Assembly (NCBI RefSeq): GCF_025398335.1
Contig: NZ_JAODOO010000005.1
Location: 186,001-250,000 of the forward strand
Length of the DNA stretch: 64,000 bases
DNA from: Clostridium sp. CX1
GTDB taxonomy: Bacteria; Bacillota; Clostridia; Clostridiales; Clostridiaceae
Reading direction: 5' to 3'
In this document: positions 19,898-37,705 of the stretch, piece after piece
Numbering within the stretch: position 1 is the first letter of the stretch
How the letters are laid out: every line of letters starts with the position of its first letter
Position numbers and translations under genes: made by a program
Notes under the pieces: generated by a model
Database searches by the model: none
Told to the model about the DNA's origin: nothing
Seen by the model: only the letters and a program-made list of their open reading frames with translations

Positions 19898-21511
19898 TTA
19901 ATTTTCCATAATTAACTTTTTCGCATTTAGTATAGATGATGCACTCATAGAGAATTCATCTAAACCATATTCTACTAATGTAGGGATAGCCTTTTCATCA
20001 CCAGCCATCTCGCCACACATTCCACACCATTTCCCTTCCTTATGAGCTGCTTCTATAGTCATTTTTATTAGTTTCAACACTGCTGGATGCATTGGATTAT
20101 ACAAGTAGGATATCTTTTCATTCATTCTATCTGCCGCCAATGTGTACTGTATTAAGTCGTTTGTTCCTATACTAAAGAAATCTACATATTTAGCAAGTTC
20201 ATCAGCATTAACAGCTGCTGCTGGTATCTCTACCATTATACCTGTTTCTAGATTCTCATTAAATTCTTTTCCTTCTGTTCTTAGCTCATCCATACATTCT
20301 TCAAGAATTTCTTTTGATTTAAGGAATTCTTCTAAAGAAGATATCATTGGAAACATTATTTTTAAATTACCAAAAGCTGAAGCCCTAAGTAATGCTCTTA
20401 ACTGAATTTTAAATATATCTGTTCTATCAAGACAAAGTCTTATAGCTCTATAACCTAAAAATGGGTTCATTTCCTCTGGCAATGGCAAATATGGAAGCTT
20501 CTTATCTCCACCAATATCAAGCGTTCTGATAACTACAGGTCTTCCTTCCATTTTTTCAACAGCATATTTATAGGACTCAAACTGTTCTTCTTCTCCTGGC
20601 ATATCATCTCTATCCATGTATAAAAATTCAGTTCTAAATAATCCTATTCCGTCTCCACCATTTGCTAATACCTGATGAACGTCTTCTGGCTTACCTATGT
20701 TCCCTGCAACTTCTACACGTTTTCCTGCCTTAGTAACAGTTTTAACATCTATTAGCTTTTTAAGTTCTTCTCTTTCTTTTTTATAAGCTTCCTTTTTAGC
20801 CTCATAGGCCTTTACTGTTTCAGCATCTGGGTTAACTATAGCAATTCCCTCTACTCCGTCTACTATAACAGTATCACCATCTTTAACTGCTGAAGTTATG
20901 TCTTGTAGTCCTACAACTGCAGGTATCTCTAAAGTTCTAGCCATAATAGCACTGTGGGAAGTCCTTCCACCAATGTTAGTTAGGAAAGCTATAACTTTAC
21001 TTCTATCTAATTGTGCTGTATCTGAAGGTGTTAAGTCATGAGCAACTACCACTGTGTTATCTTTATACTCTGATATTCCAACAGCTTTTCCTGCTAGATT
21101 GGCAAGTATTCTACTGCCAACATCTTTTATATCAGCGCCTCTCTCTCTCATGTATTCATCTTCCATAGCTGCAAATATTCCAGCATACATATTTAAAACA
21201 TCCTCAAGAGCCTTTTCTGCATTTACTTTGCTGCTTTCTATACCCATTAGTACTGCTCCTGCAAATTCTGGATCTTCTAAAAGCATCATATGACTTTCAA
21301 AAACCGCAGCTTTAGCTGCTCCAAGCTCTTTTTCTGCCTTTTCTTTTATTTGTTGCAACTGTTCTTTTGAGGCTTTTAAAGCTCTCTCAAACCTATCCTT
21401 TTCTCCTTGTATATCTTCTATTCTTCGTTCTTCTACTTTTACCTCAGTATCTTCCTTTATTAGTACTGTACCGATTGCATATCCTTTTGAAGCTGCTATA
21501 CCTTTTATCAT
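19898..21511 (-). CDS. ptsI: PTS Enzyme I (phosphoenolpyruvate--protein phosphotransferase)
   Basis: Enzyme I takes phosphate from phosphoenolpyruvate and passes it to the histidine of HPr, the first step of PTS sugar uptake. The 537 residues are slightly short of the common 570. The phosphohistidine motif GGRTSHSAIMAR has its active His at 186. The PEP-binding domain includes GIGLFRTEFLYM near residue 285, RTLDIGGDK near 340, and the conserved catalytic cysteine in GMCGEMAGDE near 475. ATG at 21511 follows GAGGAGG. No ptsH gene accompanies it. Upstream is a near-perfect sigma-54 promoter, and the divergent neighbour encodes a sigma-54 activator with its own HPr domain, which is unusual for a general PTS enzyme. 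Confidence 0.96.
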   Translation of the reverse strand: MIKGIAASKGYAIGTVLIKEDTEVKVEERRIEDIQGEKDRFERALKASKEQLQQIKEKAEKELGAAKAAVFESHMMLLEDPEFAGAVLMGIESSKVNAEKALEDVLNMYAGIFAAMEDEYMRERGADIKDVGSRILANLAGKAVGISEYKDNTVVVAHDLTPSDTAQLDRSKVIAFLTNIGGRTSHSAIMARTLEIPAVVGLQDITSAVKDGDTVIVDGVEGIAIVNPDAETVKAYEAKKEAYKKEREELKKLIDVKTVTKAGKRVEVAGNIGKPEDVHQVLANGGDGIGLFRTEFLYMDRDDMPGEEEQFESYKYAVEKMEGRPVVIRTLDIGGDKKLPYLPLPEEMNPFLGYRAIRLCLDRTDIFKIQLRALLRASAFGNLKIMFPMISSLEEFLKSKEILEECMDELRTEGKEFNENLETGIMVEIPAAAVNADELAKYVDFFSIGTNDLIQYTLAADRMNEKISYLYNPMHPAVLKLIKMTIEAAHKEGKWCGMCGEMAGDEKAIPTLVEYGLDEFSMSASSILNAKKLIMEN

Positions 21512-21595
21512 TACTTATCCTCCTCAAATATAAATCGTTCATAAAATATATCTCAAACCTATAGTCCATTTTTATTCTGACAAAGATATATTTAA

Positions 21596-21612
21596 AGCAA
21601 ATTTTATGCCAA
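21596..21612 (-). promoter_or_regulatory. Sigma-54 (-24/-12) promoter of ptsI
   Basis: The minus strand reads TTGGCATAAAATTTGCT (21612-21596). The GG and GC dinucleotides are exactly 10 nt apart and fit TGGCAC-N5-TTGC with a single mismatch. Transcription would begin near 21585, leaving a leader of about 74 nt before ptsI. No comparably good sigma-A promoter is seen between it and the gene. Confidence 0.82.
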
Positions 21613-21750
21613 TAAACTGTTAATCTAATTAATTTATATTTTCTGTCTATAATTATATTGTGTAACCTTGTATTTTTCTAATCAAAAAAATATATAACCT
21701 GTTTTTAAAGTGATTATTACGACAAAATGTTTGAAAATACGACTAAATTC

Positions 21751-21767
21751 TTGATAAAAATTATCAA
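21751..21767. promoter_or_regulatory. Inverted repeat A, candidate activator site
   Basis: TTGATAAAAATTATCAA is a perfect palindrome of 7-bp arms around 3 nt. Its centre lies about 175 bp upstream of the predicted ptsI start, the normal range for a sigma-54 enhancer site. Confidence 0.6.
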
Positions 21768-21851
21768 AGAACCTTTGTTTATAATTCCAATGAGATTTAG
21801 CACCCAGCATTAAATACTAGACTTATAGCAGATTTTAAGATATTATAATAA

Positions 21852-21868
21852 TTGATAATTTTTATCAA
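21852..21868. promoter_or_regulatory. Inverted repeat B, candidate activator site
   Basis: TTGATAATTTTTATCAA is the exact reverse complement of repeat A, 101 bp away. It overlaps the region just after a TATAAT at 21844-21849 that could be the -10 of the divergent regulator gene, so it could also serve autoregulation. Confidence 0.6.
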
Positions 21869-21882
21869 CATTTTAAGCATAT

Positions 21883-21899
21883 TTGATATTTTTTATCAG
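21883..21899. promoter_or_regulatory. Inverted repeat C, imperfect copy
   Basis: TTGATATTTTTTATCAG differs from repeat B at two positions and stands exactly 31 bp (three helical turns) from it, 14 bp before the regulator ATG. Confidence 0.5.
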
Positions 21900-21912
21900 A
21901 ACGAGGTGAATT

Positions 21913-23916
21913 ATGTATAAAAGTAGTGTAACAGTCCCTATTCCTAATGGAATACATACAAGAATTGCTGCAGTAATAGTTCATAAAGCTACTGAATTAA
22001 AAAATAAATATGGAATAAGTCTCTATATAAGAAACTTATCTGCAAAAGAGCCTTTAGCTATAAGTATGTTAGCTTTAATCTCGCTAAAGATAAGAGAAGG
22101 TGAAATAATTGAAGTTTCCTCAAGAGAAGATTCTTCAAATGCACAAAAAGCTGTGTTGGAACTCTGTGATTTTATAACTAATAGATTGAATACTAACAAT
22201 TCAGTTTTATCTAAAATTGATGATATAATCGAAGAGAATACAATAGCCTACGAACAAATTGTTAAAAATATTCCTGTGGGAATACTAGTTATTGATAACA
22301 ATGGCTACATTACGGCAATGAATGATTATTCCTTAAGGATTATAGACAGAGAATCAAAGGAAGTCATAGGTCATCATGTAAAAGAAATCATCCCAACTTC
22401 AGATCTTCCTAATATAGTGTTATCAATGGAACGAAAAGTTGGAGAAACTCAATATATCAATAACCGTCTTGTAATTACTAATAGATCACCTATATTTTCT
22501 AATAATAAAGTTATTGGTGCTTTAGGCGTGTTTCAAGACATATCGGAGCTTAGTGGCATAAAAGAACTTAACGAGAAATTTAAAAAAATACTAGAAATAT
22601 CCCATGATTTAATATGTTTTGTTGACGAAAGAAGAATTATAAGTTATGTAAATCCATCCTATGAAAAGCACTTTCATATTAAAAGTTCTGATATTGTTGG
22701 AAAGGACTTACTAGAAATTTCTCCAACAGGTCTTAGAATGAAGGTTTTTAATACAAAAAAATCTATAGATAACTCAGTTCATCGTAAGGATAACATAAAC
22801 ATAATATCTTCAGTTGCTCCTATATTCATTGATAAAACCTTTAAAGGAGTTATTTCTATCTCTAAAACTGTAAACGAGCTAAAGGATCTAGTGAAAAAAC
22901 TTGAAACCTCAGAAGAAGAATTAAATTATTATAAAGAAGAATTAAATAGACATACAAAATTAAGTAATTCCTTTTCTTCCATTATAGGTTACAGTAGTTC
23001 TCTTAAAGATTGCACTATTACAGCCCAAAAAGCTTCTCAATCAACATCTACTGTATTAATTAGAGGAGAAAGTGGTACTGGGAAAGAGCTTATAGCTAAG
23101 GCTATTCATAATAATAGTGATAGAAAGGATAAAGCTTTTGTTAGGGTAAACTGTGCTGCAATCCCTGAAAACCTGCTTGAAAGTGAATTATTCGGCTATG
23201 AAAAAGGTGCCTTCACTGGTGCTGTAAAGAATAAACCTGGAAAGTTCAATATAGCAAATGGTGGTACTATCTTTCTTGACGAAATAGGCGATATGCCTGT
23301 TTCTATGCAAGTAAAACTCCTAAGGGTTCTACAAGAAAAAGAATTCGAAAGTATCGGTGGACTTGTTACTCAGACTGTTGATGTCAGAGTGATAGCTGCA
23401 ACAAATAGAAATTTAGAGGAAATGATAAAGGAAAATACATTTAGGGAAGACCTTTATTATAGATTAAATGTTATAAACATCATGCTCCCACCATTAAGAA
23501 ACAGAAAAGAAGATATAAACCTTCTCGTAGAACACTTTATAGAAAAAATGAACAATAAATTAGGTAAAAACATTATAGGTATAGATAATAAATCTCTTCT
23601 ATACCTTCAAGATTACCACTGGCCAGGTAATATCCGAGAACTTGAAAATATTATTGAAAGAGCCATTAATATGTGTGAAGGTGTTAAAATTACTGAAATA
23701 GATTTGCCTTTCTACATTAAAAATGAAGCTTCATCTAGTGAAAGCCTTATAAATCTTAACAATGGTGAGCTTCAACCTTTAGAACAATATGAAAAAGAAA
23801 TAATAGCTTTAGCTATGAAAAAATATAAAAGCTATAATAAGGCCGGCAAAGCGCTAGGTATTACTCATAGAACTGTATCACTAAAGTGCAAAAAGTATGG
23901 TATTGATATAAATTAA
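21913..23916 (+). CDS. Sigma-54-dependent activator with HPr, two PAS, AAA+ and Fis-type HTH domains
   Basis: The protein has 667 residues. Residues 1-93 are an HPr domain: [10 protein letters not shown] places the phosphorylatable histidine at position 15, exactly as in HPr. Ser51 in [14 protein letters not shown] aligns with the regulatory Ser46 region. PAS domains lie at about 118-225 and 226-330, then a short coiled coil (325-355). The AAA+ domain (about 366-590) has Walker A GESGTGKE at 385-392, the sigma-54-contacting GAFTGA at 432-437 and Walker B TIFLDE at 452-457. A Fis-type helix-turn-helix ends the protein (about 625-667). It should activate sigma-54 promoters, with activity set by phosphorylation of the HPr domain by Enzyme I and by a PAS ligand. 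It is divergent from ptsI. The architecture is seen; the phosphorylation is inferred. Confidence 0.93.
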
Positions 23917-24895: not shown

Positions 24896-25777
24896 TTAAA
24901 TAGTTCTTATATAGTCTTCCACCATATGTAGGAATACAGTAATTGCTAATAAGTCTGCACTTCCTCCCGGACTTATGTTTCTCTCTATGAACTCAGCATC
25001 TAAAAGTTGTATAGCCTTTTTCCCTTCTATAGTTTTCATTCCACCTAAGCTTATGATGTCCCTTGCCTTTTTGTGTATATCTTGAAGCACATCTAGCGAA
25101 TGTCTATGAAGTATGTTTGTATCTTCACTATATTGCATTATTCCAATTAGAGTATGTACTAACCTATCATTTTTATTCAAGTCACTATTTAATTTATAAA
25201 ATTCTAAAGAAAAGTCAAATATTACAGGAAGCCCTTTTTCTATCTCGCCTCTAATTCCTTTAATACCATGTTCTAAAAACAGCTTTTCTCCATGTGATAA
25301 AGAGTCTTTTAATAAATGTTTCTCTCTTAATATAGGTTCTAGCTCTCTCTCTACAATTCCCTCTGTCATATCTTTTATAATCTGTCTAATATCTAGAAAT
25401 CTTTTTTTGTCTCTAATGGCTATACCTACTGCAGCACAGCATATTCCCATAAGAAATAACATTCCCTTATGAGTATTTACTCCCTTGGTTTTTTTGTACA
25501 TGTCTCTTTCCGCCATTATACCGATTTTTCTCAGCTGAAAAAATACATCATTAGGGTGATTTTTCTTAAGTCCTTCTTCTACACATAAAATTAAGTACTT
25601 TATCAATGCAGAAGTGCTATCAATAAAGGTGTAATAATCCATATCCTTATGGGCACCGTTAGATATACATGAAACAAGCCCTGGTGACGGGTAACAAGCT
25701 ACCTCATACATCATGGCCTTAACTGCTAAGCTACCAATATCAAAGGATATATCGTTTATAGTATGTCTATTATCCAT
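24896..25777 (-). CDS. citG: Triphosphoribosyl-dephospho-CoA synthase
   Basis: CitG joins dephospho-CoA to ATP-derived ribose triphosphate, making the precursor of the prosthetic group of citrate-lyase-type acyl carrier proteins. The length is 293 residues from ATG at 25777, which lies 6 nt after GGAG; a TTG at 25789 reads through that site. Typical motifs are MYEVACYPSPGLVS near residue 24, GVNTHKGMLFLMG near 100 (nucleotide-binding histidine) and SPGGSADLLAITVFLH at the C-terminus. It closes the lyase gene set after citX. It modifies the CitD-type protein at 30159-30425. Confidence 0.93.
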   Translation of the reverse strand: MDNRHTINDISFDIGSLAVKAMMYEVACYPSPGLVSCISNGAHKDMDYYTFIDSTSALIKYLILCVEEGLKKNHPNDVFFQLRKIGIMAERDMYKKTKGVNTHKGMLFLMGICCAAVGIAIRDKKRFLDIRQIIKDMTEGIVERELEPILREKHLLKDSLSHGEKLFLEHGIKGIRGEIEKGLPVIFDFSLEFYKLNSDLNKNDRLVHTLIGIMQYSEDTNILHRHSLDVLQDIHKKARDIISLGGMKTIEGKKAIQLLDAEFIERNISPGGSADLLAITVFLHMVEDYIRTI

Positions 25778-25852
25778 ATGTTTCTCCAAAATTATATTTT
25801 AATATTTATATCTATCATACCTTAAAATCCATCATACACATTATCTATATTT

Positions 25853-26479
25853 TTATAGAATAGATAAATGACAAAATTGTTGATATTTTAACCTCATAAA
25901 GTTTTCAATTTCATCAATACTGTGTTTTCTTGACCTGACACAGTTCTGCGCTAGGCTGCAACAAAGATAGCACTTTCTTTCGGATAATCCTAATTCTCTT
26001 CTGCTCAAGCTATTCCCATTTTCATCATATACATCTATATCAACACATCTTCCTAAAGGATGATTTTCTTCTATTTCTACAGTCTTGTTTTTTGCATTAT
26101 TACAGCTTTCATTAAGGACCATAGTTACTATTGGTCCCTCTGCAGTTATTTCAAAATTCTTATACAAAATAACATTTTTAAACACAGCAATAATTAAAGC
26201 ACTAATTTCTTTTAATATACCAAAAGATATATAATTGTTTTTATTCGTTCCTGGATAATTAACCCTAATCACAATCAAAGTACCCTTATATTTCCCAATT
26301 AGCGATTGCTGCCTATATACTCTTTCTTCTCTTTCTGATAATATATCTTCCGGACTATATTTTCTTATATAGCGAATATCTATTCTTTTATCCCATTCAT
26401 CTTCTTCTGTACAAAGCTTACATATAGCTTCTGTTAACCCTAGTTCTTCTTCATTAAAAATTACTACATCTTCTTTCAT
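25853..26479 (-). CDS. citX: Citrate-lyase-type apo-ACP phosphoribosyl-dephospho-CoA transferase
   Basis: CitX attaches the 2'-(5''-triphosphoribosyl)-3'-dephospho-CoA group made by CitG to the serine of the gamma subunit. The 208 residues carry the family signatures ENHPLGRCVDIDVYD near residue 140 and ERKCYLCCSLAQNCVRSRKHS near 165-185. The start is 4 bp after the citC stop, so the pair is coupled. In some bacteria citX and citG are fused; here they are separate. Confidence 0.93.
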   Translation of the reverse strand: MKEDVVIFNEEELGLTEAICKLCTEEDEWDKRIDIRYIRKYSPEDILSEREERVYRQQSLIGKYKGTLIVIRVNYPGTNKNNYISFGILKEISALIIAVFKNVILYKNFEITAEGPIVTMVLNESCNNAKNKTVEIEENHPLGRCVDIDVYDENGNSLSRRELGLSERKCYLCCSLAQNCVRSRKHSIDEIENFMRLKYQQFCHLSIL

Positions 26480-26483
26480 AAAC

Positions 26484-27530
26484 TTAATGAGGAGAATTAC
26501 TAATCTTTATTCTCTCACTTATCTCCTTTCCTAATTGGGAGTTTAAGAAATTCCAAGTTACCTCAGGAACTAATTCTCTAACCTTATCCATTTTATTGTT
26601 TCTTATAAGCTCCCTTACCTTTGAGGCACTTATAAATTCTTCATTGTTCTTTTTTCTTTTTAATTCTATAACTTCTACACCATACTTAGGCATTATATCC
26701 TTTAAGGTCTGGTTATAGGTATTAGTTACATTGCAATATGGCTCTTCACCTACAAACCTCTTATCTATATTAAATCTACTACAGAAATACTTTCCAAAAA
26801 TGTTGCAATCCACATTTTGATAGGCTCTCATTCTATCATCTTCTTTTCTTATGAAATAATTAGGGAAAGTGGCAGAGGATATAATATACTCTCCTCCTGG
26901 TACTACAGTAACATTTGTCAAATCCTTTAACCCTTCTTTCACAATAGAATACCTATGCTTAAATGGAAATATTGATCTGTCTTCCTCCACAATGAATACT
27001 AATACTTCTTCACATCTCTTGGCAGCCTCTTCTATTATATATCTATGTCCCTTGGTAAAAGGATTGCAATTCATAACTAAAGCTCCTTTTAAGCTCTGTA
27101 GATTTATGCTATATCTATCTATCATTTTATTTAAGGACTTATTTATATCGTAAATGCCATATTCTAGAAGGGCAGCTTCCTCTACTTCATATATCAATTT
27201 AAAATTTAAAGCTGTAAATATTTTTATTTTATCAGGTTTTGTAAAGACAAAGTTATGATATATTCCTTCTTCAAAGGCTTTATCAATAAGATGGGAAATA
27301 AGAGAAGAAGTCACATTTTCTCCTCTTAAGTCTTCCGATATAGCAAAACATTTGAAAATATTCTTTTCCTTAGAACAGGTAGCCTTAATAGTTTCATTCC
27401 CATCTCTTAAAACCACAGTATAATCCACATCTTTGTCTAAAGTTAACTGGAACTGTTCTAGGAATCTGTACACCTCATTTTTTTCTTTTTCATTTTTTAA
27501 ATTTATACTTTGAAGTTTAAAATCGTACAT
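26484..27530 (-). CDS. citC: [Citrate/citramalate (pro-3S)-lyase] ligase (acetate:SH-ACP ligase)
   Basis: CitC acetylates the lyase ACP thiol with acetate and ATP, converting inactive HS-lyase to active acetyl-lyase. The 348 residues begin with a GNAT-like N-terminal domain (about 1-130). A nucleotidyltransferase domain follows, with the HxGH-type motif NCNPFTKGHRYIIEEA near 155 and the ISASKVREL segment near 305. ATG at 27530 follows AAGGAG. In this setting the target enzyme is probably citramalate lyase and not citrate lyase. Confidence 0.92.
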   Translation of the reverse strand: MYDFKLQSINLKNEKEKNEVYRFLEQFQLTLDKDVDYTVVLRDGNETIKATCSKEKNIFKCFAISEDLRGENVTSSLISHLIDKAFEEGIYHNFVFTKPDKIKIFTALNFKLIYEVEEAALLEYGIYDINKSLNKMIDRYSINLQSLKGALVMNCNPFTKGHRYIIEEAAKRCEEVLVFIVEEDRSIFPFKHRYSIVKEGLKDLTNVTVVPGGEYIISSATFPNYFIRKEDDRMRAYQNVDCNIFGKYFCSRFNIDKRFVGEEPYCNVTNTYNQTLKDIMPKYGVEVIELKRKKNNEEFISASKVRELIRNNKMDKVRELVPEVTWNFLNSQLGKEISERIKISNSPH

Positions 27531-27620
27531 TATAATAGCTCCTTTTGATTAGATTATATGTTGTTTACAGCTAACCTGTATGCGAAAGTTAATATAAGGC
27601 TAAACTATATCTCAAATCTT

Positions 27621-29162
27621 TTATTCTAATGGCTTTTTCACCACATCAATTACAGTTCCATCTCTATATTCAACTACAGCCACAATTTCCTCTGAAGTTT
27701 GTATCTCCTCTGGTTTCCCTGTCATGGTTTCTGCTAATTGTTTTAAATCTTCTATAGTCATAACTGGCAGATTGGTTTTCTTTAGCTCTTCTATTAGATC
27801 CTCTCTTGCAGGATTTACAGCTATGCCTCTTTCAGTAACAACTACATCTATACTTTCTCCCGGTGTTGTTACCGTGGTTACTCTATCTTTTATAATTGGA
27901 AGTCTTCCCTTTATTAAATTTGTAACAACTATTGAAAGCTTTGATCCTGCTGCTGTATCACTATGTCCTCCTGAACCGCCCATTATTACTCCACTAGAGC
28001 CTGTAGTTACATTTACATTAAAGTCTGTATCTATTTCTGTAGCTCCTAGTATCATAACATCTAGATTGTTTACTACTGCTCCCTTGTTATGAGGATTTCC
28101 ATACATAGATCCAGACATACCTTGATGTTTAGGATTATTTCTATAGGATTCAACTGCTTTTAAATCAAAGCATTGAACATCGAACAGGCTTCTAAATAAT
28201 CCTTCCTCTAACATATCTACTATGTATCCAGTTATTCCACCTGCTGCAAAACTTCCTACAACATCTTTCTTCTTCATTATTTCTTTCAATTCTACAGCTA
28301 CTGCAAGGGAGGTTCCTCCCGCTCCTGTTTGAAAAGACATTCCATCCTTTACTAAGCCAGAAGCTTCTATAACCTTAGCTGCCATCTTAGCAATTTTAAG
28401 TCCTACAGGGTCCTTTGTTACCTTTGTAGTACCAGATACAATTCCAGCTGGATTTCCTATGGAATCTACTTTTACTACGTAATCTACATAAATCTGGCTT
28501 ATTTCTATCGGTGACGCAGGATATGGTACTAAGTTATCTGTAATCGCTACTACCTTATCTGCATACTCTGCGTCTGATACTGCATAACCTAGTGATCCAC
28601 AAGCAGCATCTCCATAAACTCCATTTATGTTTCCATATGTATCTGCTGTTGGTGCCCCTATAAATGCAACATCTATATGTAAGTCTCCACTCTCTATGGC
28701 TCTTGGTCTTCCTCCATGAGTCATCATAACTGCTGGATTTTTAAGTTCTCCTCTTGATACAGCTTCTGCCACAGGTCCAGAAATGTAGTTTGCTATTATT
28801 CCAGTAACTACGCCATTTTTAATATGCTCTACTAAAGGCTCATGTACTGGAAAGATGGAGCTTGCAGCTATTTTTATATCTTTAATTCCTCTTTTTGAAA
28901 TTGCATACACTACATTGTTAAGTACGAAATCACCGTTTCTTAGGTGATGATGAAAAGATATAGTCATTCCATCCTTTAATTCTAATCTATCTAAAGCTTC
29001 ATCAATACTGTTAAGAACTTTTTCTTCTCCAGGCTTCACAGTACTTACTTTAACTCCAACCTTTTCTTTCACTCCATAATTTGAAAAGGCTCCTTCAAAA
29101 TGTTTAACACTTCCATAACCCTCTATATAATCAGGAATATCTCTTCCTAGTATATTTTTCAT
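27621..29162 (-). CDS. citF: Citrate/citramalate lyase alpha subunit (acyl-ACP transferase)
   Basis: The alpha subunit (513 residues) swaps the acetyl group on the ACP for the substrate, forming citramalyl-ACP (or citryl-ACP). The CoA-transferase-like fold is shown by DGMTISFHHHLRNGD near residue 60, GAPTADTYGNINGVYG near 180 and VTERGIAVNPAREDL near 460. It follows citE by 28 bp. Homology alone would call it citrate lyase; glutamate mutase, methylaspartase and the hydro-lyase genes just upstream argue for citramalate as the true substrate. Confidence 0.92.
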   Translation of the reverse strand: MKNILGRDIPDYIEGYGSVKHFEGAFSNYGVKEKVGVKVSTVKPGEEKVLNSIDEALDRLELKDGMTISFHHHLRNGDFVLNNVVYAISKRGIKDIKIAASSIFPVHEPLVEHIKNGVVTGIIANYISGPVAEAVSRGELKNPAVMMTHGGRPRAIESGDLHIDVAFIGAPTADTYGNINGVYGDAACGSLGYAVSDAEYADKVVAITDNLVPYPASPIEISQIYVDYVVKVDSIGNPAGIVSGTTKVTKDPVGLKIAKMAAKVIEASGLVKDGMSFQTGAGGTSLAVAVELKEIMKKKDVVGSFAAGGITGYIVDMLEEGLFRSLFDVQCFDLKAVESYRNNPKHQGMSGSMYGNPHNKGAVVNNLDVMILGATEIDTDFNVNVTTGSSGVIMGGSGGHSDTAAGSKLSIVVTNLIKGRLPIIKDRVTTVTTPGESIDVVVTERGIAVNPAREDLIEELKKTNLPVMTIEDLKQLAETMTGKPEEIQTSEEIVAVVEYRDGTVIDVVKKPLE

Positions 29163-29190
29163 TTTAATCCCTCACTTTTTAATCGTATGC

Positions 29191-30063
29191 TTATATAAGG
29201 CCTAATACCTTAGCTAGTTCTACCGTTGTTAGTGCTCTATTTATAATAGGTGCGTCTACCATTTTTCCGTCTAATGAAAATACGCCTAAGCCCTTTTCCT
29301 TTGCCTCATCCCTAGCCTGTAGTATCCTAAGTGCATGATTAATTTCCTGTTCTGTTGGTGCAAGCACAGAATGTATAGTATCAATCTGTCTAGGATTAAT
29401 GGCTGCCTTACCTGTAAATCCTAAACTTTTAGCCTTTAACGTATCTTTTGAAAGACCTTCATAATCATTTGTATCGGTGAAAGGTGTATCTATTGCATGA
29501 ACTCTAGCAGCCCTACACGCTGTGGATACTCTATTTCTAGCATAGAAAATTTCTTCTCCTTCTTTAGTTCTCTTAATTCCAAAGTCAGAGGTCAAATCTT
29601 CCCCTCCTAGAAGTACTGCAACTACTCTTTTTGAAGAATTTATTATACTATAAACATTTTCTAATCCGTAAGCAGTTTCAACAATTGGTATGAGCTTAAT
29701 GCTGCTCTTTTCAAATCCTTCTTCACTCTCTATCCTGTCTAGCATCTTATCTATTTGCTGTAGTTGTTCTTCTGTAGCTTTTGGAATCATTAAACTATCT
29801 GGTTTAACTCTAGCTATAACATCTATATCCTTAATACCATATTCTGTGTCAAGAGGGTTAACTCTTACAACCAATTCTACTTGAGAATAGTCTATAAATT
29901 TTATAGCCTCTCTAACCAATATTCTTGCACTATCTTTTTCAGTTAAACTTACTGCATCTTCTAAGTCAAGTATTACTGAATCTGCTCCAAGTATTGGTGC
30001 ATTCTGAAGCATTCCTGGATTATTTCCAGGCATAAAAAGCATTGTTCTTCTTAATGTTTTCAT
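29191..30063 (-). CDS. citE: Citrate/citramalate lyase beta subunit (acyl-ACP lyase)
   Basis: The beta subunit cleaves citramalyl-ACP to acetyl-ACP and pyruvate (or citryl-ACP to oxaloacetate). It has 290 residues from ATG at 30063, 8 nt after AAGGGG; an ATG at 30069 is too near that site. The HpcH/HpaI aldolase TIM-barrel signatures are present: LFMPGNNPGML near residue 10, SVILDLEDAVSLTEKD near 30, VVAVLLGGEDLTSDFG near 145 and GKAAINPRQID near 215. The acidic residues of LDLED and GGED should bind Mg2+. Confidence 0.93.
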   Translation of the reverse strand: MKTLRRTMLFMPGNNPGMLQNAPILGADSVILDLEDAVSLTEKDSARILVREAIKFIDYSQVELVVRVNPLDTEYGIKDIDVIARVKPDSLMIPKATEEQLQQIDKMLDRIESEEGFEKSSIKLIPIVETAYGLENVYSIINSSKRVVAVLLGGEDLTSDFGIKRTKEGEEIFYARNRVSTACRAARVHAIDTPFTDTNDYEGLSKDTLKAKSLGFTGKAAINPRQIDTIHSVLAPTEQEINHALRILQARDEAKEKGLGVFSLDGKMVDAPIINRALTTVELAKVLGLI

Positions 30064-30158
30064 ATTCATTTCCCCTTCTTAGTGAAAATTAAATGTAGTT
30101 TTACGGAGATATTTATAAATATATACCTTTACCTTAATATAGTAAGTTTATTTTAAAA

Positions 30159-30425
30159 TTACTCCACTGCTCTCTCTACAGCAGTTTGTACTCTAGCTCT
30201 TATTGTGTAGTCTAAAGCTCCCTTATCCTGAGCTTTTATAACTACATCTTCTAGACCTAATTCATCTATTTTATTTAATATTACTGACTTTATTTGATTG
30301 CCAAATTGCTTCATAACTATGCTTTCTAGCTCCAATTCTATTCCACTGTTCTCATTTGGCATAATCATTATTAATATATCATTTGATTCAAGGGTTCCAG
30401 CCTTTGCTACCTTATTTATTTTCAT
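30159..30425 (-). CDS. citD: Citrate/citramalate lyase acyl carrier protein (gamma subunit)
   Basis: An 88-residue carrier subunit starting MKINKVAKAG at 30425 behind GGAGG; a longer open frame to 30515 has no binding site and overlaps the upstream gene. Ser14 in AGTLESND is at the position that carries the phosphoribosyl-dephospho-CoA group in known CitD proteins. RARVQTAVERA closes the protein as usual. CitX, CitG and CitC, which load and acetylate it, are encoded downstream in the same operon. Confidence 0.95.
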   Translation of the reverse strand: MKINKVAKAGTLESNDILIMIMPNENSGIELELESIVMKQFGNQIKSVILNKIDELGLEDVVIKAQDKGALDYTIRARVQTAVERAVE

Positions 30426-30459
30426 CTTAATCCTCCTGACATTAAAAGCAAAATAGTGA

Positions 30460-31017
30460 CTATTTAGTTGATTTAAGATATTCCCTCTGTCCTTGTTCAT
30501 ACAGATTGTTTCCATCGGAATCTATTACCACAACCACCGGTAGGTCTTCTACCTCAAGTTTTCTTATTGCCTCAGAACCTAAATCCTCATAGGCAATAAT
30601 TTCAGCTTTTTTAATAGACTTACCCATTAGCGCTGCAGCTCCACCTATGGCTGCAAAATAAACTGCTTTATTCTTTACCATTGAATCTACTACTTCTTTT
30701 GATCTTAATCCTTTTCCAATCATACCTCTTAATCCAATATCTAGAAGTCGTGGTGTATATGAATCCATTCTATAACTTGTCGTTGGACCTGCTGAACCTA
30801 TTGGTTGACCTGGTTTTGCCGGAGATGGTCCTACATAGTATATAATTTCATCTTTAATGTTTAAGGGTAAATTTTCTCCCTTATCTAAAAGTTCTACGAG
30901 CCTCTTATGAGCTGCATCTCTAGCAGTATATATGGTTCCTGAAATTAAAACACTATCCCCAGCTTTTAAATCTTTAACTTTATCCTCAGTTAAAGGAGTA
31001 GTTATTCTTTTTTCCAT
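30460..31017 (-). CDS. Class I fumarase-type hydro-lyase, beta subunit (probable mesaconase)
   Basis: The small subunit of a two-subunit [4Fe-4S] hydro-lyase has 185 residues from ATG at 31017, 8 nt after GGAGG; a GTG at 31032 reads through that site. The motifs GTIYTARDAAHKR near residue 30, YYVGPSPAKPGQPIGSAGPTTS near 60 and KGLRSKEV are standard for the C-terminal swivelling domain of fumarase and tartrate dehydratase. By homology it hydrates fumarate. Its place directly after methylaspartase suggests mesaconate to (S)-citramalate as the main reaction; class I fumarases are known to accept mesaconate. Confidence 0.88.
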   Translation of the reverse strand: MEKRITTPLTEDKVKDLKAGDSVLISGTIYTARDAAHKRLVELLDKGENLPLNIKDEIIYYVGPSPAKPGQPIGSAGPTTSYRMDSYTPRLLDIGLRGMIGKGLRSKEVVDSMVKNKAVYFAAIGGAAALMGKSIKKAEIIAYEDLGSEAIRKLEVEDLPVVVVIDSDGNNLYEQGQREYLKSTK

Positions 31018-31088
31018 ACTATCTTCCTCCACAATTCTTAGTTAAGAGTTATAACTATATTATAGTTTTTTCTTCTAACTTCTAACTG

Positions 31089-31931
31089 TTATAGTTCTAT
31101 TTCTGCATGTCTTGTAACATGGCAATTAATATTTACCGCTACAGGTAATCCTGCTATATGAGTTGGATATGTTTCTATATTTACTGCAAGTGCAGTAGTC
31201 TTCCCACCAAAACCTTGTGGTCCTATACCTAAAGCATTTATTTCCTCTAAAAGTTCTTTTTCTAAATCAGAATAAAAGCTATTATTGTTTCTCTGTGCTA
31301 AAGGTCTTATTAATGCTTTTTTAGCTAAATTAGCAGCTTTGTCAAAGGTACCTCCTAATCCTACTCCAACAACAATTGGTGGACATGGATTTGGACCTGC
31401 TTCTTTTACTACTTTTAACACAAATTCCTTAACGCCTTTCAAACCATCTGCTGGTTTTAACATCTTAAGCTGACTCATGTTTTCAGAACCAAAGCCTTTA
31501 GGTGCCACAGTTATTTTTAGTTTATCTCCCGGAACTATATCGTAGTATATAACTGCCGGAGTGTTATCCTTAGTGTTAATTCTATCTAACGGATCCTTTA
31601 CCACTGACTTTCTTAGGTAACCCTCTCCATAGCCTAGTCTTACACCTTCATTTATTGCTTCTTCTAAGCTTCCTCCTACTACATGGACATTCTGACCAAT
31701 TTCTATAAAGACACAGGCCATACCCGTATCTTGACACATAGGCATCTGTTCATTTTTAGCTATATCTACATTTGTAATTATCTTATCCAAGATTCCCTTT
31801 GCCATAGACCAACTTTCATTTTCGTATGCTTCTTTAAGTTTAGCTTTAACGTCCTCTGAAAGATAATAATTAGAGTCTATACATAATCCTTTTACAGCCT
31901 TTGTTATTTCAGATACATTTATCTCTCTCAT
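31089..31931 (-). CDS. Class I fumarase-type hydro-lyase, alpha subunit (probable mesaconase)
   Basis: The large, cluster-bearing subunit has 280 residues and starts MREINVSEI at 31931 behind AAGGAGAGG; the frame continues to 31997 without a binding site. Cluster cysteines are expected in MPMCQDTGMACVF near residue 60, GPNPCPPIVVG near 185 and in the C-terminal NINCHVTRHAEIEL. GVGLGGTFDKAA near 200 is also conserved. Class I enzymes are oxygen-sensitive, in line with an anaerobe. With the beta subunit it would form citramalate for the downstream lyase. Confidence 0.9.
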   Translation of the reverse strand: MREINVSEITKAVKGLCIDSNYYLSEDVKAKLKEAYENESWSMAKGILDKIITNVDIAKNEQMPMCQDTGMACVFIEIGQNVHVVGGSLEEAINEGVRLGYGEGYLRKSVVKDPLDRINTKDNTPAVIYYDIVPGDKLKITVAPKGFGSENMSQLKMLKPADGLKGVKEFVLKVVKEAGPNPCPPIVVGVGLGGTFDKAANLAKKALIRPLAQRNNNSFYSDLEKELLEEINALGIGPQGFGGKTTALAVNIETYPTHIAGLPVAVNINCHVTRHAEIEL

Positions 31932-32010
31932 TAACTTCCTCTCCTTTATTAAATAGATGAAAAGGCAGTTTAATAAAACCGCCTTCTCAATAACCAATTT
32001 AAGTTAACTA

Positions 32011-33252
32011 CTATTTTCTTCTATTTATTAATGCAAGTACTCTATTCATTTCATTATTGACTATCATATAACCTTCGTCAACACCCATTCCTGGTTTAGC
32101 AAGTACTTGTTTTGCTCCACAAGCCATTCCAATGTTTGTAGTTACTTCGGCAGATCTATTTGTTTCATTGCAAGTTCCACCACAATAAGCTCCTATTCCA
32201 TGCTCTTTGCAATATATAATAGCCTCAGCAATATTGTTGACACCACCTAGGTCAGGAGTTTTAATCTGTACCATATGTCCAGCTTTATTATCTGTAAAGA
32301 ACTTAACATCTTCAACAGTGTTGCACCACTCGTCTGCAACTAATTCTACTTGAATTCCTCTTCCGTCAATTTCTGCTCTTAAGTCTCTCATAGCTTCCAT
32401 TTGCTTTTGTCTGTGTTCTACGTCCATAGGTCCTTCAATTCTCAAATGGAATGGTTTTGCAGCTTCCTCTAATGTTGCTATATAATCTGCCATAGCCTTT
32501 GTATCATAATTAAATGCAATACCAATTGTTCCATATACATCTATATGAAATACTGGGTTATACTCTTCAGTTGTTCTAAGTTTTAACACTCTGTCTCTTA
32601 GCCATTTAACATATTCTAATAACTTCTCTCCACCAAGTCCTAATTTTTCTTCAACGTTATTTATAAGAGCATGAGGCATTACATCTGCGCCTTTAATAAT
32701 CATCTTATCAGAACTATCGTATCTGTCATCTCCTGATTGAGTAAATATTGGAACTCTATTTATTTCTGCTTCTGGGTTATATTCATTTCTTATAACCTCA
32801 GCCATAGTAATTTTTTGTGATTTTGCTACAGCATCTAAAATAGCTTGAGTTATTCCATATCTTATAGCAGTATGTAATCTTTCTCCATTAACTTGCATTG
32901 TATCGAATTCTTCTGCTAGAGCCTTAAATTCTGTTAATTCTCTGCCAATAAGTTTTGGAGCTATTTCTTTCTCTATCACTGGTATAAAATCTTTAGCTAA
33001 GAATAATGGATCTCTTCCGCCAGCTCCTGAATATTGAACAGCAGCACAGTCTCCGTATGCCACCTGACCATCTTCAAGTATTAACATTACAGATATAGCT
33101 TCTCCCGCTTGTCTAACCTTTGTAAAACCATCTGTTACAGCCTCTCCTACATACGTAAATCCATCATGTTTTGCGCCTTTTTTTATGGCTCTCTGGTCAT
33201 CAAAGTAAAATCCTGTTTTTCCTTCTGAGCATATAACGTCAACAATTTTCAT
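32011..33252 (-). CDS. mal: Methylaspartate ammonia-lyase (beta-methylaspartase)
   Basis: This enolase-superfamily enzyme removes ammonia from (2S,3S)-3-methylaspartate to give mesaconate. The 413 residues equal the C. tetanomorphum enzyme in length. The start MKIVDVICSEGKTGFYFDD and the segment SGAGGRDPLFLAKDFIP are near-identical to it as I remember. The catalytic lysine lies in HMVQIKTPDLGG (Lys331 in family numbering), the general-acid histidine region is MPHALINN, and the metal ligands lie in FHIDVYGT, RIEGP and VADEW. GGTCNETNRSAE near the end is diagnostic. The product feeds the mesaconase subunits encoded next. Confidence 0.98.
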   Translation of the reverse strand: MKIVDVICSEGKTGFYFDDQRAIKKGAKHDGFTYVGEAVTDGFTKVRQAGEAISVMLILEDGQVAYGDCAAVQYSGAGGRDPLFLAKDFIPVIEKEIAPKLIGRELTEFKALAEEFDTMQVNGERLHTAIRYGITQAILDAVAKSQKITMAEVIRNEYNPEAEINRVPIFTQSGDDRYDSSDKMIIKGADVMPHALINNVEEKLGLGGEKLLEYVKWLRDRVLKLRTTEEYNPVFHIDVYGTIGIAFNYDTKAMADYIATLEEAAKPFHLRIEGPMDVEHRQKQMEAMRDLRAEIDGRGIQVELVADEWCNTVEDVKFFTDNKAGHMVQIKTPDLGGVNNIAEAIIYCKEHGIGAYCGGTCNETNRSAEVTTNIGMACGAKQVLAKPGMGVDEGYMIVNNEMNRVLALINRRK

Positions 33253-33315
33253 ATTTTACACCTGTCTTTCTTTAATTGTTTCCTAATTACAAATTATTTA
33301 TTAAATATTATATAT

Positions 33316-33342
33316 TGACTACCGCATTTGATACGGTAGTCA
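33316..33342 (-). other. Intercistronic hairpin between mutE and mal
   Basis: A perfect 9-bp stem TGACTACCG (33316-33324) with CGGTAGTCA (33334-33342) stands in the only long gap (121 bp) inside the glutamate mutase part of the operon. No U-run follows on the minus strand, so it is more likely an mRNA-processing or 3'-protection element than a full terminator. Confidence 0.55.
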
Positions 33343-33373
33343 TATTTTCTTTTAATAATTGTATATTCTTTTA

Positions 33374-34822
33374 TTAAGGTCTTCCGATAAGTTTTCCTTT
33401 ACCAACAGCAAATATATCATCAATAGTCATTTGGAAACTAACTTCTCTTCCTTCAAACCTACCTCTTTCTTCTAGCTTCTTCATATTAAATTCCTTTAAT
33501 TCATCAGTTAAAGGTACGTTACCGAATTTAAGGTATCTAACTGCACCATTGTTATCTCTTGCTGGCATCATTTTTCCTGCGTTATACTTACTTGGAGCAA
33601 ATGGAATATCTACTACTCCAGCCTCAAATCCTTTTACTGTTCCTATTGCTAAATCACCATTACCAAGCTCAAACAATTTATCCATCATGCATTTAGTTTC
33701 AGCTTTTATTATAGCAATCTCAGTTTCTAATTCCTTTGACATAGGAAGTCTTTGACCTTGTAACATATTTAAAGCCATCTTTGTTGCCTTTATTCCTGAT
33801 GCATTTGCTTCTTTTGTTGGTATACCCATAGCCTCATGAGGTGTTTTTACTATAACCTTTGTAGCTCCAGCTAAAGCTGCTGTTGCTGCTCCAGAAGATA
33901 TTACCCCAAATGCTTTTGATTCGTCTTGAGGAAATCCTCCCATCCATTGGTGGAAAACTGTAGTTATATATACATCCTTATATCCATACTGCTCTAAATA
34001 TTCATTTACCTGCTCTTCTAAAGCTCTTATAGCTGCTACGTCCTGAACAAGATTTCCACATTGTCCGTATCCAACAGTTATATTTTTAACTCCTTGTTCT
34101 GCCGCAAGTAATGCTTCTATTATAGCTACCGTATTTGATATACTTGGTGGGACTAATGTACCTGTCAAAGGACCGAAAGGTTCTCTATTTATTGATATAC
34201 CTTGTTCTTCATAGAAACCTACAAGTCTATCACAGTACTGCCAATCTAATAGAGTCTTTTCTATGGATACACTCTTAGCATATGGAATGTTATAAGATAT
34301 TCCACCACCCTCATTTGAAGTCCAGCCTGCTGCATGAATTATTTCTGAAAGTAGTCTAGCATCTGGTGTACCGTGTCTTGCTTGAAGTGGCAGATTAACA
34401 GACTCAAATACCTTTCTACATCCTTTTACTCCGTGGTTAACTCCTGGAAAACCATTTAATAGTGATCTTCCGGCAGCAATACTCTCTTTTATTCCTATTT
34501 CACATTCATCATACTTATTCTGTCTTGTATAGCTATCTATAGTTGATGGAAGTAAATCTGCTTCACCTTCATCTTGAAGATGATTTAAAAGTTCTATATG
34601 CTCATCTATTAAAGCAACTCCTGCTCTCGGCTGAGCTAATGTTACTCCAGATTCTTTAGCTTTTCTTAACTTTGCTGGGAAACTCTTTTCTTCAGGTATA
34701 CTTTTTAAATAATCTATAGCTTCTTGAAGGTCTACTTCACTGCCAGTAGGCCATTGAGCTAATACCTCTTTTCTCATGTTAAAAAATTCTTCATCTGTCC
34801 ATTTTTTATTTTTAAGTTCCAA
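33374..34822 (-). CDS. mutE: Glutamate mutase epsilon subunit (methylaspartate mutase E)
   Basis: The epsilon subunit forms the TIM barrel where coenzyme B12 generates the radical that turns L-glutamate into (2S,3S)-3-methylaspartate. The 482 residues hold the substrate-clamping arginines at exactly the C. cochlearium positions: Arg66 in QPRAG, Arg100 in SYTRQ and Arg149 in QARHG. The ARHGTPDAR and [13 protein letters not shown] segments are also characteristic. It works with the small cobalamin-binding subunit encoded two genes upstream. The gene is often called glmE, a name easily confused with the glucosamine genes in this window. Confidence 0.98.
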
Positions 34823-34834
34823 TCGAATTACCTC

Positions 34835-36232
34835 CTAAACAACCTTCAATAAATATTTTTTCATGATTCTAACTGCCATATCTGAATTCTCTTCTGCTAA
34901 CAATCCCATAGCTGACATTATATACGTTTTGTCCATTAAATATTCAGGATTTTGTGGCTTTAAATGTGTAGGATCAGCTTTATCAAAGTTTCCTGCTTTT
35001 AATATCTCAGCAGGATGTTCACTATGAACCAGCACCCCACCTGTTCCTATTAGATACTTAACCTCTAATAAGTCCTTGCCTTCCTGAGAGTATACTACTC
35101 CACATGGAGTATATAAGGTTTCAAGAACCCCAACATGTCTTTCTAATGCTAACTCAGTTGCAACTTTAGCCATCGCTTCGTCGAACTTTATTTCCTCTTC
35201 TGTGGTTGGAACCATTCTTATATTCTCTGATCTATATTTACAGTTTTCCTCAACATCTACTGTTTTATCATCAAGATATTTCTGGATTTTTCTTGTTGTG
35301 GCCGCTTCCCATAATGCAACAGCAGAGTACCTCATTCCTAAATCACCTTCAACTGTTCTCTTTGCAAAAGGTTCCTGAAGTCCTCTTAATGTTACCCCTG
35401 CCTTTGAAGGCTCACCATCTGCTAGCGAATGCACATCGGTAGTTGCTCCTCCAATGTCAACCACAATTAAATCGCCTAACCCTTCTTCCTTATCAGTTCC
35501 CTCACTTAAAACTCTAGCAGCTTTAAGTACTGCAGCTGGAGTTGGCATTAAAATTCCGCTTATATAGTTTTCAGCATTTTTCATGCCCTTAGCTTCTATT
35601 ATTTTTTCCATAAATATTTTTCTTATTTCTTCTCTAGCAGGCTCAACATCTAAAACATTAAGCTTAGGCATTACATTACTAGTTATTTTATAAAACATAC
35701 CTGCATCTTTTAGTATTTTTTCTACATCATCTACTGCAACTTTATTTCCAGCTACAACTATTGGTACTTTCATTCCACTTTCCGCTAGCATCTTCGCATT
35801 ATGGATTATACAATCTTTGTTTCCTCCATCCGTTCCTCCAGCTAAAAGGATAATATCTAGTTTTGAATTTCTAATTTCCTCTATTTCCTTTGATGTCAGA
35901 TCATAACTATAAACATTTAATACTCTAGCTCCAGCTCCTAATGCAGCTCTTTTTGCTGCTTCAGCTGTAAGCTCTGGTACAAGTCCTATAGCAATCATTT
36001 TCAAACCACCTGCTGCAGAAGAACATGCTAACTTTTTAGTAAAATTGATTTCTTTACCCTTTAATTGACCCTCCAGTTTTTGAAAGGCGTTATCAAAGCC
36101 TACCATTATATCGTTTTCAATAGTAGTAATATCTTTAGCTGTAGCAATTATTTCTTCATTCTCTATATCTACGGCAGTAAGCTTAGTATAGGTGCTACCA
36201 AAATCTATGAGCAAGTAACTATCCAAATCCAT
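34835..36232 (-). CDS. mutL: MutL/GlmL reactivating ATPase-like protein of glutamate mutase
   Basis: An ASKHA-fold protein of about 465 residues, always found between the two glutamate mutase genes. The phosphate motif LIDFGSTYTKLTAVD is near residue 8, and GGTDGGN near 130 and VVDIGGATTDVHS near 255 complete the actin-like ATP site. It is thought to release damaged cobalamin from the mutase, though direct proof is limited. A GTG at 36250 opens a longer frame without a binding site. ATG at 36232 is close (2 nt) to AGGAG, and a TTG two codons later (36226) has the best spacing (8 nt), so the exact start is uncertain. Confidence 0.9.
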   Translation of the reverse strand: MDLDSYLLIDFGSTYTKLTAVDIENEEIIATAKDITTIENDIMVGFDNAFQKLEGQLKGKEINFTKKLACSSAAGGLKMIAIGLVPELTAEAAKRAALGAGARVLNVYSYDLTSKEIEEIRNSKLDIILLAGGTDGGNKDCIIHNAKMLAESGMKVPIVVAGNKVAVDDVEKILKDAGMFYKITSNVMPKLNVLDVEPAREEIRKIFMEKIIEAKGMKNAENYISGILMPTPAAVLKAARVLSEGTDKEEGLGDLIVVDIGGATTDVHSLADGEPSKAGVTLRGLQEPFAKRTVEGDLGMRYSAVALWEAATTRKIQKYLDDKTVDVEENCKYRSENIRMVPTTEEEIKFDEAMAKVATELALERHVGVLETLYTPCGVVYSQEGKDLLEVKYLIGTGGVLVHSEHPAEILKAGNFDKADPTHLKPQNPEYLMDKTYIMSAMGLLAEENSDMAVRIMKKYLLKVV

Positions 36233-36265
36233 CACTCCTGTTTTCCCCACAGAGGTTTATTTTTA

Positions 36266-36676
36266 TTAACCTTCTATTTTCAAATCAACCTTTAAATCCT
36301 CTATTGTAATTTCTGGTGATGTTCCAGGTGCGTATACTCTGTTAAATCCCATCTCCTTGAACTTTTGGTGAACATCTTCCCATTTTTGTTTTCCTACAAC
36401 TAAGTTTCCTCCTACATACATGAGAATTCCCTTAAGTCCAGCCTCATCGCACTTTTCTCTTAATCCTCTACAATCTATTTCTCCATGTCCATATAATGAA
36501 GATACTAATATTGCATCTGCATTAGTTTCTATTGCTGCATTTATAAAATCTTCTTGTGGAGAAAGAACTCCTATATTAACAACATTAAATCCTGCCTGCG
36601 TAAAAGAATGTTCCAATATCTTATTCCCAACAGCGTGGCAGTCTGAACCGATTACACCTATAACTAAAGTTTTCAT
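36266..36676 (-). CDS. mutS: Glutamate mutase sigma subunit (cobalamin-binding, methylaspartate mutase S)
   Basis: A 136-residue flavodoxin-like B12-binding protein. The base-off/His-on motif DxHxxG appears as SDCHAVGNK with His14 as the cobalt ligand, followed by [10 protein letters not shown] and the [11 protein letters not shown] and [10 protein letters not shown] loops that hold the nucleotide tail. It joins with MutE and adenosylcobalamin to make active glutamate mutase. It begins 18 bp after the GntR-type regulator gene and so lies in its transcript. It is not the DNA-repair MutS. Confidence 0.97.
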
Positions 36677-37672: not shown

Positions 37673-37691
37673 CCCAAAGTTTATTGGATTA

Positions 37692-37705
37692 ATGGACCAA
37701 TCCAT
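37692..37705. promoter_or_regulatory. Candidate GntR operator
   Basis: ATGGACCAATCCAT is an inverted repeat of 5-bp arms around 4 nt, placed about 5-18 nt after the predicted start of the operon mRNA. A matching half-site, ATGGAC, lies in the promoter spacer at 37735-37740. The pair could be bound by the encoded regulator. Confidence 0.5.

Follow-up and report, generated by a model that had tools for sequence, protein, structure and literature searches.

An HPr-bearing sigma-54 activator as the probable regulator of the Enzyme I gene in clostridia

The window, meaning the whole stretch of 64,000 nucleotides analysed from Clostridium sp. CX1 (contig NZ_JAODOO010000005.1, positions 186,001 to 250,000), contains ptsI, the gene for Enzyme I of the phosphotransferase system (PTS), back to back with a gene for a sigma-54 activator that carries an HPr domain of its own. 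This regulator is probably an activator of ptsI that reads the phosphorylation state of the PTS through its HPr domain. The part of this reading that sequence comparison supports is the arrangement of the locus, in which the regulator lies beside ptsI with two or three operator-like palindromes and a predicted sigma-54 promoter in between. Direct phosphorylation of the regulator by Enzyme I is plausible, and would fit the invariant His15, Arg17, and the conserved surface presumed to face Enzyme I.

The ptsI-regulator locus

The features of the locus are as follows.

19898..21511, minus strand: ptsI, Enzyme I of the PTS, 537 aa (TIGR01417, E 6.1e-213; Pfam PEP-utilisers_N, mobile and C domains)
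21596..21612, minus strand: predicted sigma-54 -24/-12 promoter, TTGGCAT-N5-TTGCT, directed toward ptsI (consensus match)
21752..21766, unstranded: palindrome TGATA-N5-TATCA, site 1, candidate upstream activator site (pattern match)
21853..21867, unstranded: palindrome TGATA-N5-TATCA, site 2 (pattern match)
21884..21898, unstranded: palindrome TGATA-N5-TATCA, site 3, 31 bp from site 2 and 14 bp ahead of the regulator start codon
21913..23916, plus strand: HPr-PAS-PAS-AAA-HTH sigma-54 activator, 667 aa, ATG start (translation, Pfam, model)
21922..22179, plus strand: HPr domain, residues 4-89, with His15, Arg17 and Ser51 (Pfam PF00381, E 1.5e-10; fold; conservation)
22264..22551, plus strand: first PAS domain, residues ~118-213 (Pfam; model)
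22576..22869, plus strand: second PAS domain, residues ~222-319 (Pfam; model)
22981..23481, plus strand: sigma-54 AAA+ domain with GAFTGA, residues 357-523 (Pfam PF00158, Sigma54_activat, E 3.3e-74)
23779..23904, plus strand: helix-turn-helix (HTH), residues 623-664 (Pfam HTH_50, E 5.8e-11)

The original prediction, made from the letters of the window alone, had described the order HPr-PAS-PAS-AAA-HTH with a GAFTGA motif. Pfam and the translation confirm this architecture; its HTH fits HTH_50 best, while the Fis model HTH_8 stays below its cut-off (17 versus 22 bits). The PTS-HPr match scores 41.4 bits against a cut-off of 23, an AAA lid is also matched, and the translation contains both GAFTGA and the Walker A sequence GESGTGKE. 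These motifs, along with the presence of a sigma-54 gene elsewhere in the genome and of a -24/-12 promoter nearby, mark the protein as a predicted sigma-54 activator, or bacterial enhancer-binding protein (EBP). There is no PRD and no EIIA- or EIIB-like domain among the matches listed for the regulator (25 of the 27 Pfam families at E <= 1), and a PRD/LevR-type identity was rejected on that ground. The regulator also scores below the curated NCBIfam cut-offs for DhaR (NF008485; 242.2 bits against 551) and PrdR (NF041552; 515.7 bits against 795). As the full-length model is weak (mean predicted local distance difference test, pLDDT, 76.6; predicted template modelling score, pTM, 0.41), the arrangement of the domains was not inferred from it.

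A search of the 4.24-Mb genome with PF02896 returned the ptsI of the window as the sole Enzyme I gene; the other two matches are dikinase-sized open reading frames (ORFs) of 898 and 887 aa. That ptsI is divergent from the regulator and has no adjoining ptsH, as also predicted, was borne out, the canonical HPr (92 aa, 99 bits in the genome search) being encoded on a different contig. As this ptsH is solitary and has no palindrome nearby, it was dismissed as a further target here. An HPr kinase gene is present.

The gap between ptsI and the regulator is 401 bp long and holds one sigma-54 site and three palindromes, none of which the original prediction had reported. The site at 21596-21612 reads TTGGCATAAAATTTGCT, and the consensus used is TTGGCATNNNNNTTGCT, from Nie et al. 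2019 (PMC6615313). The sigma-54 pattern occurs at 12 sites in the genome and its reversed control pattern at none. A scan for sigma-70 promoters gave 24 sites, with 22.2 expected, and was uninformative. The motif TGATA-N5-TATCA is found at 14 places in the whole genome versus 25 for the reversed control, and a wide palindrome regulon was rejected since the motif is not enriched. Three of the 14 copies are packed into 147 bp of the ptsI gap, and none of the other 11 is near any of the 12 sigma-54 sites. The regulon predicted from the strict palindrome therefore comprises ptsI and perhaps the regulator itself, autoregulation being possible from the palindromes at the regulator start.

Conservation of the regulator-ptsI pair

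Relatives of the regulator were sought in 146 genomes of the family, and the results were tallied manually from the result table. Full-length relatives (53-100% identity) are present in 63 genomes, the window genome counted, forms lacking one PAS domain in 5 further genomes, and damaged copies in two more (G033, broken; G045, truncated by the contig end). We compared 84 loci (the window, 31 from named genomes and 52 others), and an ORF that includes the HPr part was obtained from 83 of them; 68 are distinct after removal of repeats, including one fragment of a broken gene (L195, from G033). In that locus the regulator is split into three open pieces, and the three palindromes before ptsI persist.

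Two of the 68 loci (L048 and L058) lie at contig ends, leaving 66 orthologues with enough upstream sequence. The original prediction had called for a search of clostridial genomes for the pairing, and 65 of these 66 stand divergent to ptsI, all but one at a distance of 271-735 bp. The single orthologue away from ptsI (L053) is a second, full-length copy in Clostridium caldaquaticum, the other copy of which adjoins ptsI. The neighbours of L053, a TPR gene and a thioredoxin reductase-like gene, resemble by eye those flanking ptsI in the window.

All 65 divergent gaps contain palindromes, with three in 51 and two in 14. A sigma-54 site toward ptsI is found in 52 of the gaps with the strict pattern and in 57 with the relaxed one, and six of the eight gaps lacking a relaxed site carry one with one or two mismatches, bringing the count to 63 of 65; none of the 65 gaps has a sigma-54 site toward the regulator. 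In 13,000 block-shuffled gaps, for which dinucleotide content is preserved only approximately, at least one palindrome occurred in 27, at least two in none, and a relaxed sigma-54 site in 4. As a negative control, we took 30 genomes without the regulator, from 23 genera, and scanned 700 bp upstream of the 29 ptsI loci found in 26 of them; three of the control genomes (G009, G118, and G125) do carry the paralogue discussed below. The 29 control loci are free of palindromes and of strict sigma-54 sites; a relaxed site is present in one of them (L222). With palindromes in every divergent gap, a sigma-54 site in 57, and negative controls, the predicted control of ptsI by the regulator is strongly supported at the level of sequence.

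In Clostridium oryzae (L049, 906-6930), the regulator is followed by rpoN, ptsH and ptsI, all three on the opposite strand (regulator> <rpoN <ptsH <ptsI). A sigma-54 site with a pair of palindromes lies immediately upstream of ptsH-ptsI, away from the regulator. This placement argues that the target is ptsI and not the regulator alone. The C. oryzae cluster unites the genes for the sigma factor, the activator and the target. The regulator-ptsI pair is also carried by the industrial species C. tyrobutyricum and C. carboxidivorans. In two loci of Clostridium sp. OS1-26 (L061 and L194), ptsI is in two overlapping pieces of 255 and 304 aa, which could be due to a frameshift or a sequencing error.

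The HPr domain as a candidate phosphate receiver

An isolated model of the HPr domain, built from 27 sequences, has a mean pLDDT of 95.4, and the 32 PDB matches to it in Foldseek at E <= 0.001 consist entirely of HPr or Crh chains. By the Pfam match, the model and Foldseek, the domain is predicted to have the HPr fold, and a chance match was ruled out by fold and conservation. Across the 68 orthologues, the only invariant columns are Gly13, His15, Arg17, Ala20, and Ser51; when 14 paralogues that keep the HPr domain are included, Gly13, His15, and Ala20 remain. His15 is thus present in 68 of 68 orthologues and 14 of 14 paralogues (82 of 82), Arg17 in 68 and 13, respectively (81 of 82), and the phosphorylation motif is the least variable stretch of the domain. 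Pro18 is not retained: the residue directly after Arg17 is Ile in the window regulator, and among the 68 orthologues it is Ile in 42, Val in 13, Phe in 9, Tyr in 3, and Leu in 1, while the canonical HPr of this genome has Pro.

The columns presumed to contact Enzyme I, which we take to be those of E. coli HPr as mapped onto the domain by alignment, have a mean entropy of 0.76 versus 1.71 elsewhere in the domain. None of 20,000 permutations reached so low a value, and p is 0.0009 with His15 and Arg17 excluded; the low entropy may partly mirror the fold and not binding. Conservation of this whole surface, beyond His15, would also be expected if the HPr domain were a docking module for free Enzyme I (or HprK or DhaM) that gauges protein level and not phosphate flux, with the regulator still activating ptsI. 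Binding can be a means of signalling for HPr: among the Foldseek matches are chains of it bound to Rsd, glycogen phosphorylase, and a fructose regulator. However, the retention of His15 in 82 and Arg17 in 81 of 82 sequences exceeds what docking alone would need, and we consider this explanation unlikely.

Ser51, the equivalent of HPr Ser46, is found in all 68 orthologues and in 13 of the 14 paralogues, and the genome has an HPr kinase gene. The input could accordingly be phosphorylation of Ser51 by HPr kinase, in which case the regulator would read the glycolytic energy state and not Enzyme I. Yet the same serine occurs in HPr of E. coli, which is not known to have an HprK, and so can be retained for structure; moreover, a Ser51 input would leave both the invariant His15 and the ptsI and dhaKLM targets unexplained. 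It is an improbable sole input.

The retained His15 would likewise suit a domain that serves as an additional phosphocarrier for EII proteins and has no regulatory role. A separate HPr is encoded in 67 of 67 tested genomes (of 70 with the regulator or a remnant), each with at least one stronger match in a short ORF, so the regulator domain is not the sole HPr of the cell, and a bulk carrier would be unlikely to be fused to an activator. We regard a mere carrier role as very improbable indeed.

A paralogue at dihydroxyacetone kinase genes

Fifteen further loci in the family, at 41-47% identity, are away from ptsI. In all 15 the paralogue is upstream of dhaK and dhaL on the same strand, separated from them by no more than a glycerol facilitator gene or a short ORF; dhaM is present in 14 and a glycerol facilitator gene in 6 (Pfam identities of the dha genes were checked in L139 and L148). 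The HPr part is kept in 14 of the 15.

Downstream (3') of the paralogue stop codon, a relaxed sigma-54 site is found in 11 of 15 loci. A repeat related to the ptsI-type palindrome, GG(T/G)A-N5-TATCA, occurs at the 3' end of the paralogue in 10 of 15 loci versus 0 of 15 for an equal in-gene control stretch, and in L145, L147, and L149 it is present as two copies 30-31 bp apart. The ptsI-type palindrome is present twice in L146. As the asymmetric repeat GG(T/G)A-N5-TATCA at the paralogue loci (L139-L152) is related to that palindrome, the ptsI- and dhaKLM-linked regulators may bind related operators.

A class-wide search of 391 genomes found ten with a strong relative, five of them outside the family. 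Four of these five relatives adjoin dhaM-dhaK-dhaL, and the fifth (L241, 2056-10001), from another family of the class, is in a single row of glpF-dhaK-dhaL-dhaM-ptsI-regulator, a row that links both branches of the regulator family. DhaM receives its phosphate from HPr. The theme shared by the two predicted targets, Enzyme I and the DhaM of the kinase, would be that both are direct partners of HPr.

A tree was built from every second orthologue (34 of 68, reduced to 33 when one short fragment was dropped), 14 paralogues, five distant relatives and four outgroup rows; two of six intended outgroup rows had no ORF and are absent from it. The ptsI-linked regulators group with support of 93/95 and the dhaKLM-linked family members with 98/92. 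In the unrooted tree, the ptsI-linked side also takes in four of the five distant regulators linked to dha genes. As the outgroup rows are long-branched and one lies inside the ingroup, the root and direction of change are not settled.

A dhaKLM-linked paralogue in G118 (L153) lacks the HPr domain, so the domain has been dispensable at least once in this branch. The input of L153 must have another source. This loss would favour an explanation in which the PAS domains carry the true signal, a ligand or redox state, and the HPr domain is a relic of a dhaKLM-type ancestor; in clostridia, sigma-54 activators are described as usually sensing through PAS domains (PMC6615313). Against this, six ptsI-linked forms that have lost ~100 PAS residues still keep the HPr domain, and it is the phosphorylation motif that varies least within that domain. 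We give the PAS explanation little credence.

Weighing the evidence

Several observations, the loss in L153 among them, count against a regulator that activates ptsI in response to PTS phosphorylation. Autoregulation may account for part of the signal, since two of the three palindromes in the window adjoin the start of the regulator. In the divergent loci L192 and L193 there are palindromes and no recognisable sigma-54 site, the C. caldaquaticum copy L053 has neither ptsI nor palindromes beside it, and in L241 the sole relaxed sigma-54 site precedes glpF and there is no TGATA palindrome. The HPr domain itself is diverged, with 41 bits in Pfam versus 99 scored by the canonical protein in the genome search, 18-27% identity to solved HPr structures and a replaced Pro18, and the contact columns mapped onto it are presumed ones. 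Lastly, a -10/-35-type promoter has been described for ptsI of C. acetobutylicum (PMC4700727), and ptsI thus need not rely on sigma-54 alone.

Relation to known systems

LevR and CelR are activators whose PRD and EII-like domains are phosphorylated by HPr or EII, and they control sugar-specific operons. The regulator proposed here would resemble them as a sigma-54 activator under PTS histidine phosphorylation; unlike them, it has no PRD or EII-like domain among the Pfam matches listed, and it is located at the gene for the general enzyme. It can be viewed as a PTS-controlled sigma-54 activator in which an HPr domain replaces the PRDs. The title of PMC10864463 and the references of PMC6510779 both mention CelR.

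Nie et al. 2019 (PMC6615313) include PTS-HPr among the domains through which clostridial EBPs receive input (text and Fig. 2a legend), and their Table 1 lists a predicted sigma-54 regulon as "DhaQ: dhaKLM, ptsI". Like the HPr regulators described here, the DhaQ group consists of clostridial sigma-54 activators with dhaKLM and ptsI as predicted targets, and the HPr regulators are located at these genes with a sigma-54 site (before ptsI in 57 of 65 gaps, and at the paralogue next to dhaK-dhaL in 11 of 15 loci). We infer that the group probably corresponds to the two classes described here. The original prediction knew of no characterised example of the arrangement. That statement stands insofar as the portions of PMC6615313 consulted offer prediction only, and needs correction in that PTS-HPr activators and the link to ptsI were already in print. 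Both the architecture and the predicted connection to ptsI are therefore published, while a direct loop from Enzyme I to the activator was not found in print: phosphorylation of the activator by Enzyme I is not proposed in those portions of PMC6615313, and no Enzyme I-to-HPr-bearing-activator loop was found in the literature searched, a search that left most subscription papers outside.

In a published HPr tree (Comas et al. 2008, PMC2405797), the legend carries the labels cacetrocr and cperfrocr, and "rocr" does not occur as the start of a word in the available text. Judging by the labels, these sequences are probably HPr domains that C. acetobutylicum and C. perfringens carry in RocR-like regulators, belonging to the regulator family or to the paralogue. 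The neighbouring pair CAC3087/CAC3088 of C. acetobutylicum is presumably an instance of the ptsI-regulator pair; neither CAC3088 nor CA-C3088 occurs in three papers examined for these names.

DhaR of E. coli is a sigma-54-type activator of the PTS-fed dihydroxyacetone kinase that senses the DhaKLM subunits by contact and is not known to have an HPr domain. The paralogue described here is located at the same type of operon, and the window regulator scores 242 bits versus the DhaR cut-off of 551. In a C. beijerinckii study (PMC6510779), dhaKLM is predicted to be sigma-54-dependent.

Little was found in the literature on the control of clostridial ptsI. Expression of ptsI is down in a C. acetobutylicum ccpA mutant (PMC3507653), which is not decisive, and the parts of PMC7017808 and PMC12316311 examined contain nothing on ptsI.

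A proposed circuit

The HPr domain may serve as a phosphohistidine receiver in a family of sigma-54 activators, such that Enzyme I phosphorylates a transcription factor and so sets the expression of its own gene; we put the chances of this fuller scheme at about even. In such a circuit, the regulator would bind the palindromes, Enzyme I~P would pass its phosphate to His15 of the regulator's HPr domain, and this phosphorylation would alter the activity of the AAA+ ring. We slightly favour a sign in which the phospho-regulator is inactive, with the opposite sign nearly as likely. Under the favoured sign, a surplus of Enzyme I~P would lower ptsI expression and sugar uptake that drains phosphate from Enzyme I would raise it, resulting in homeostasis. 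The palindromes at the start codon would let the regulator restrain its own synthesis, and Ser51 may supply an additional input from HPr kinase. At the dhaKLM loci, the paralogue would match the dihydroxyacetone kinase, which depends on phosphoenolpyruvate, to the phosphate supply via the same type of domain.

If this is correct, the HPr domain would mimic the natural partner of the enzyme that the regulator controls, Enzyme I in one branch and DhaM or Enzyme I in the other, and the phosphate input to sigma-54 activators would be distinct from both Asp receivers and PRDs. Were the regulator a substrate of Enzyme I, a single protein would link phosphate flux back to Enzyme I abundance, and sigma-54 promoters would have a natural, compact switch based on phosphohistidine. 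The circuit would also be relevant to sugar uptake in the industrial species that have the pair, C. tyrobutyricum and C. carboxidivorans among them, and specific tests become possible on one residue, one operator and one promoter.

Other genes of the window

Beyond the regulator, the minus strand at 24896-36676 appears by eye to encode the 3-methylaspartate pathway of glutamate fermentation, with genes read as glutamate mutase, methylaspartate ammonia-lyase, mesaconase, citramalate lyase, and citC/citX/citG-like genes. This run is preceded by a regulator gene at 36695-37705, which is of the GntR type by Pfam.

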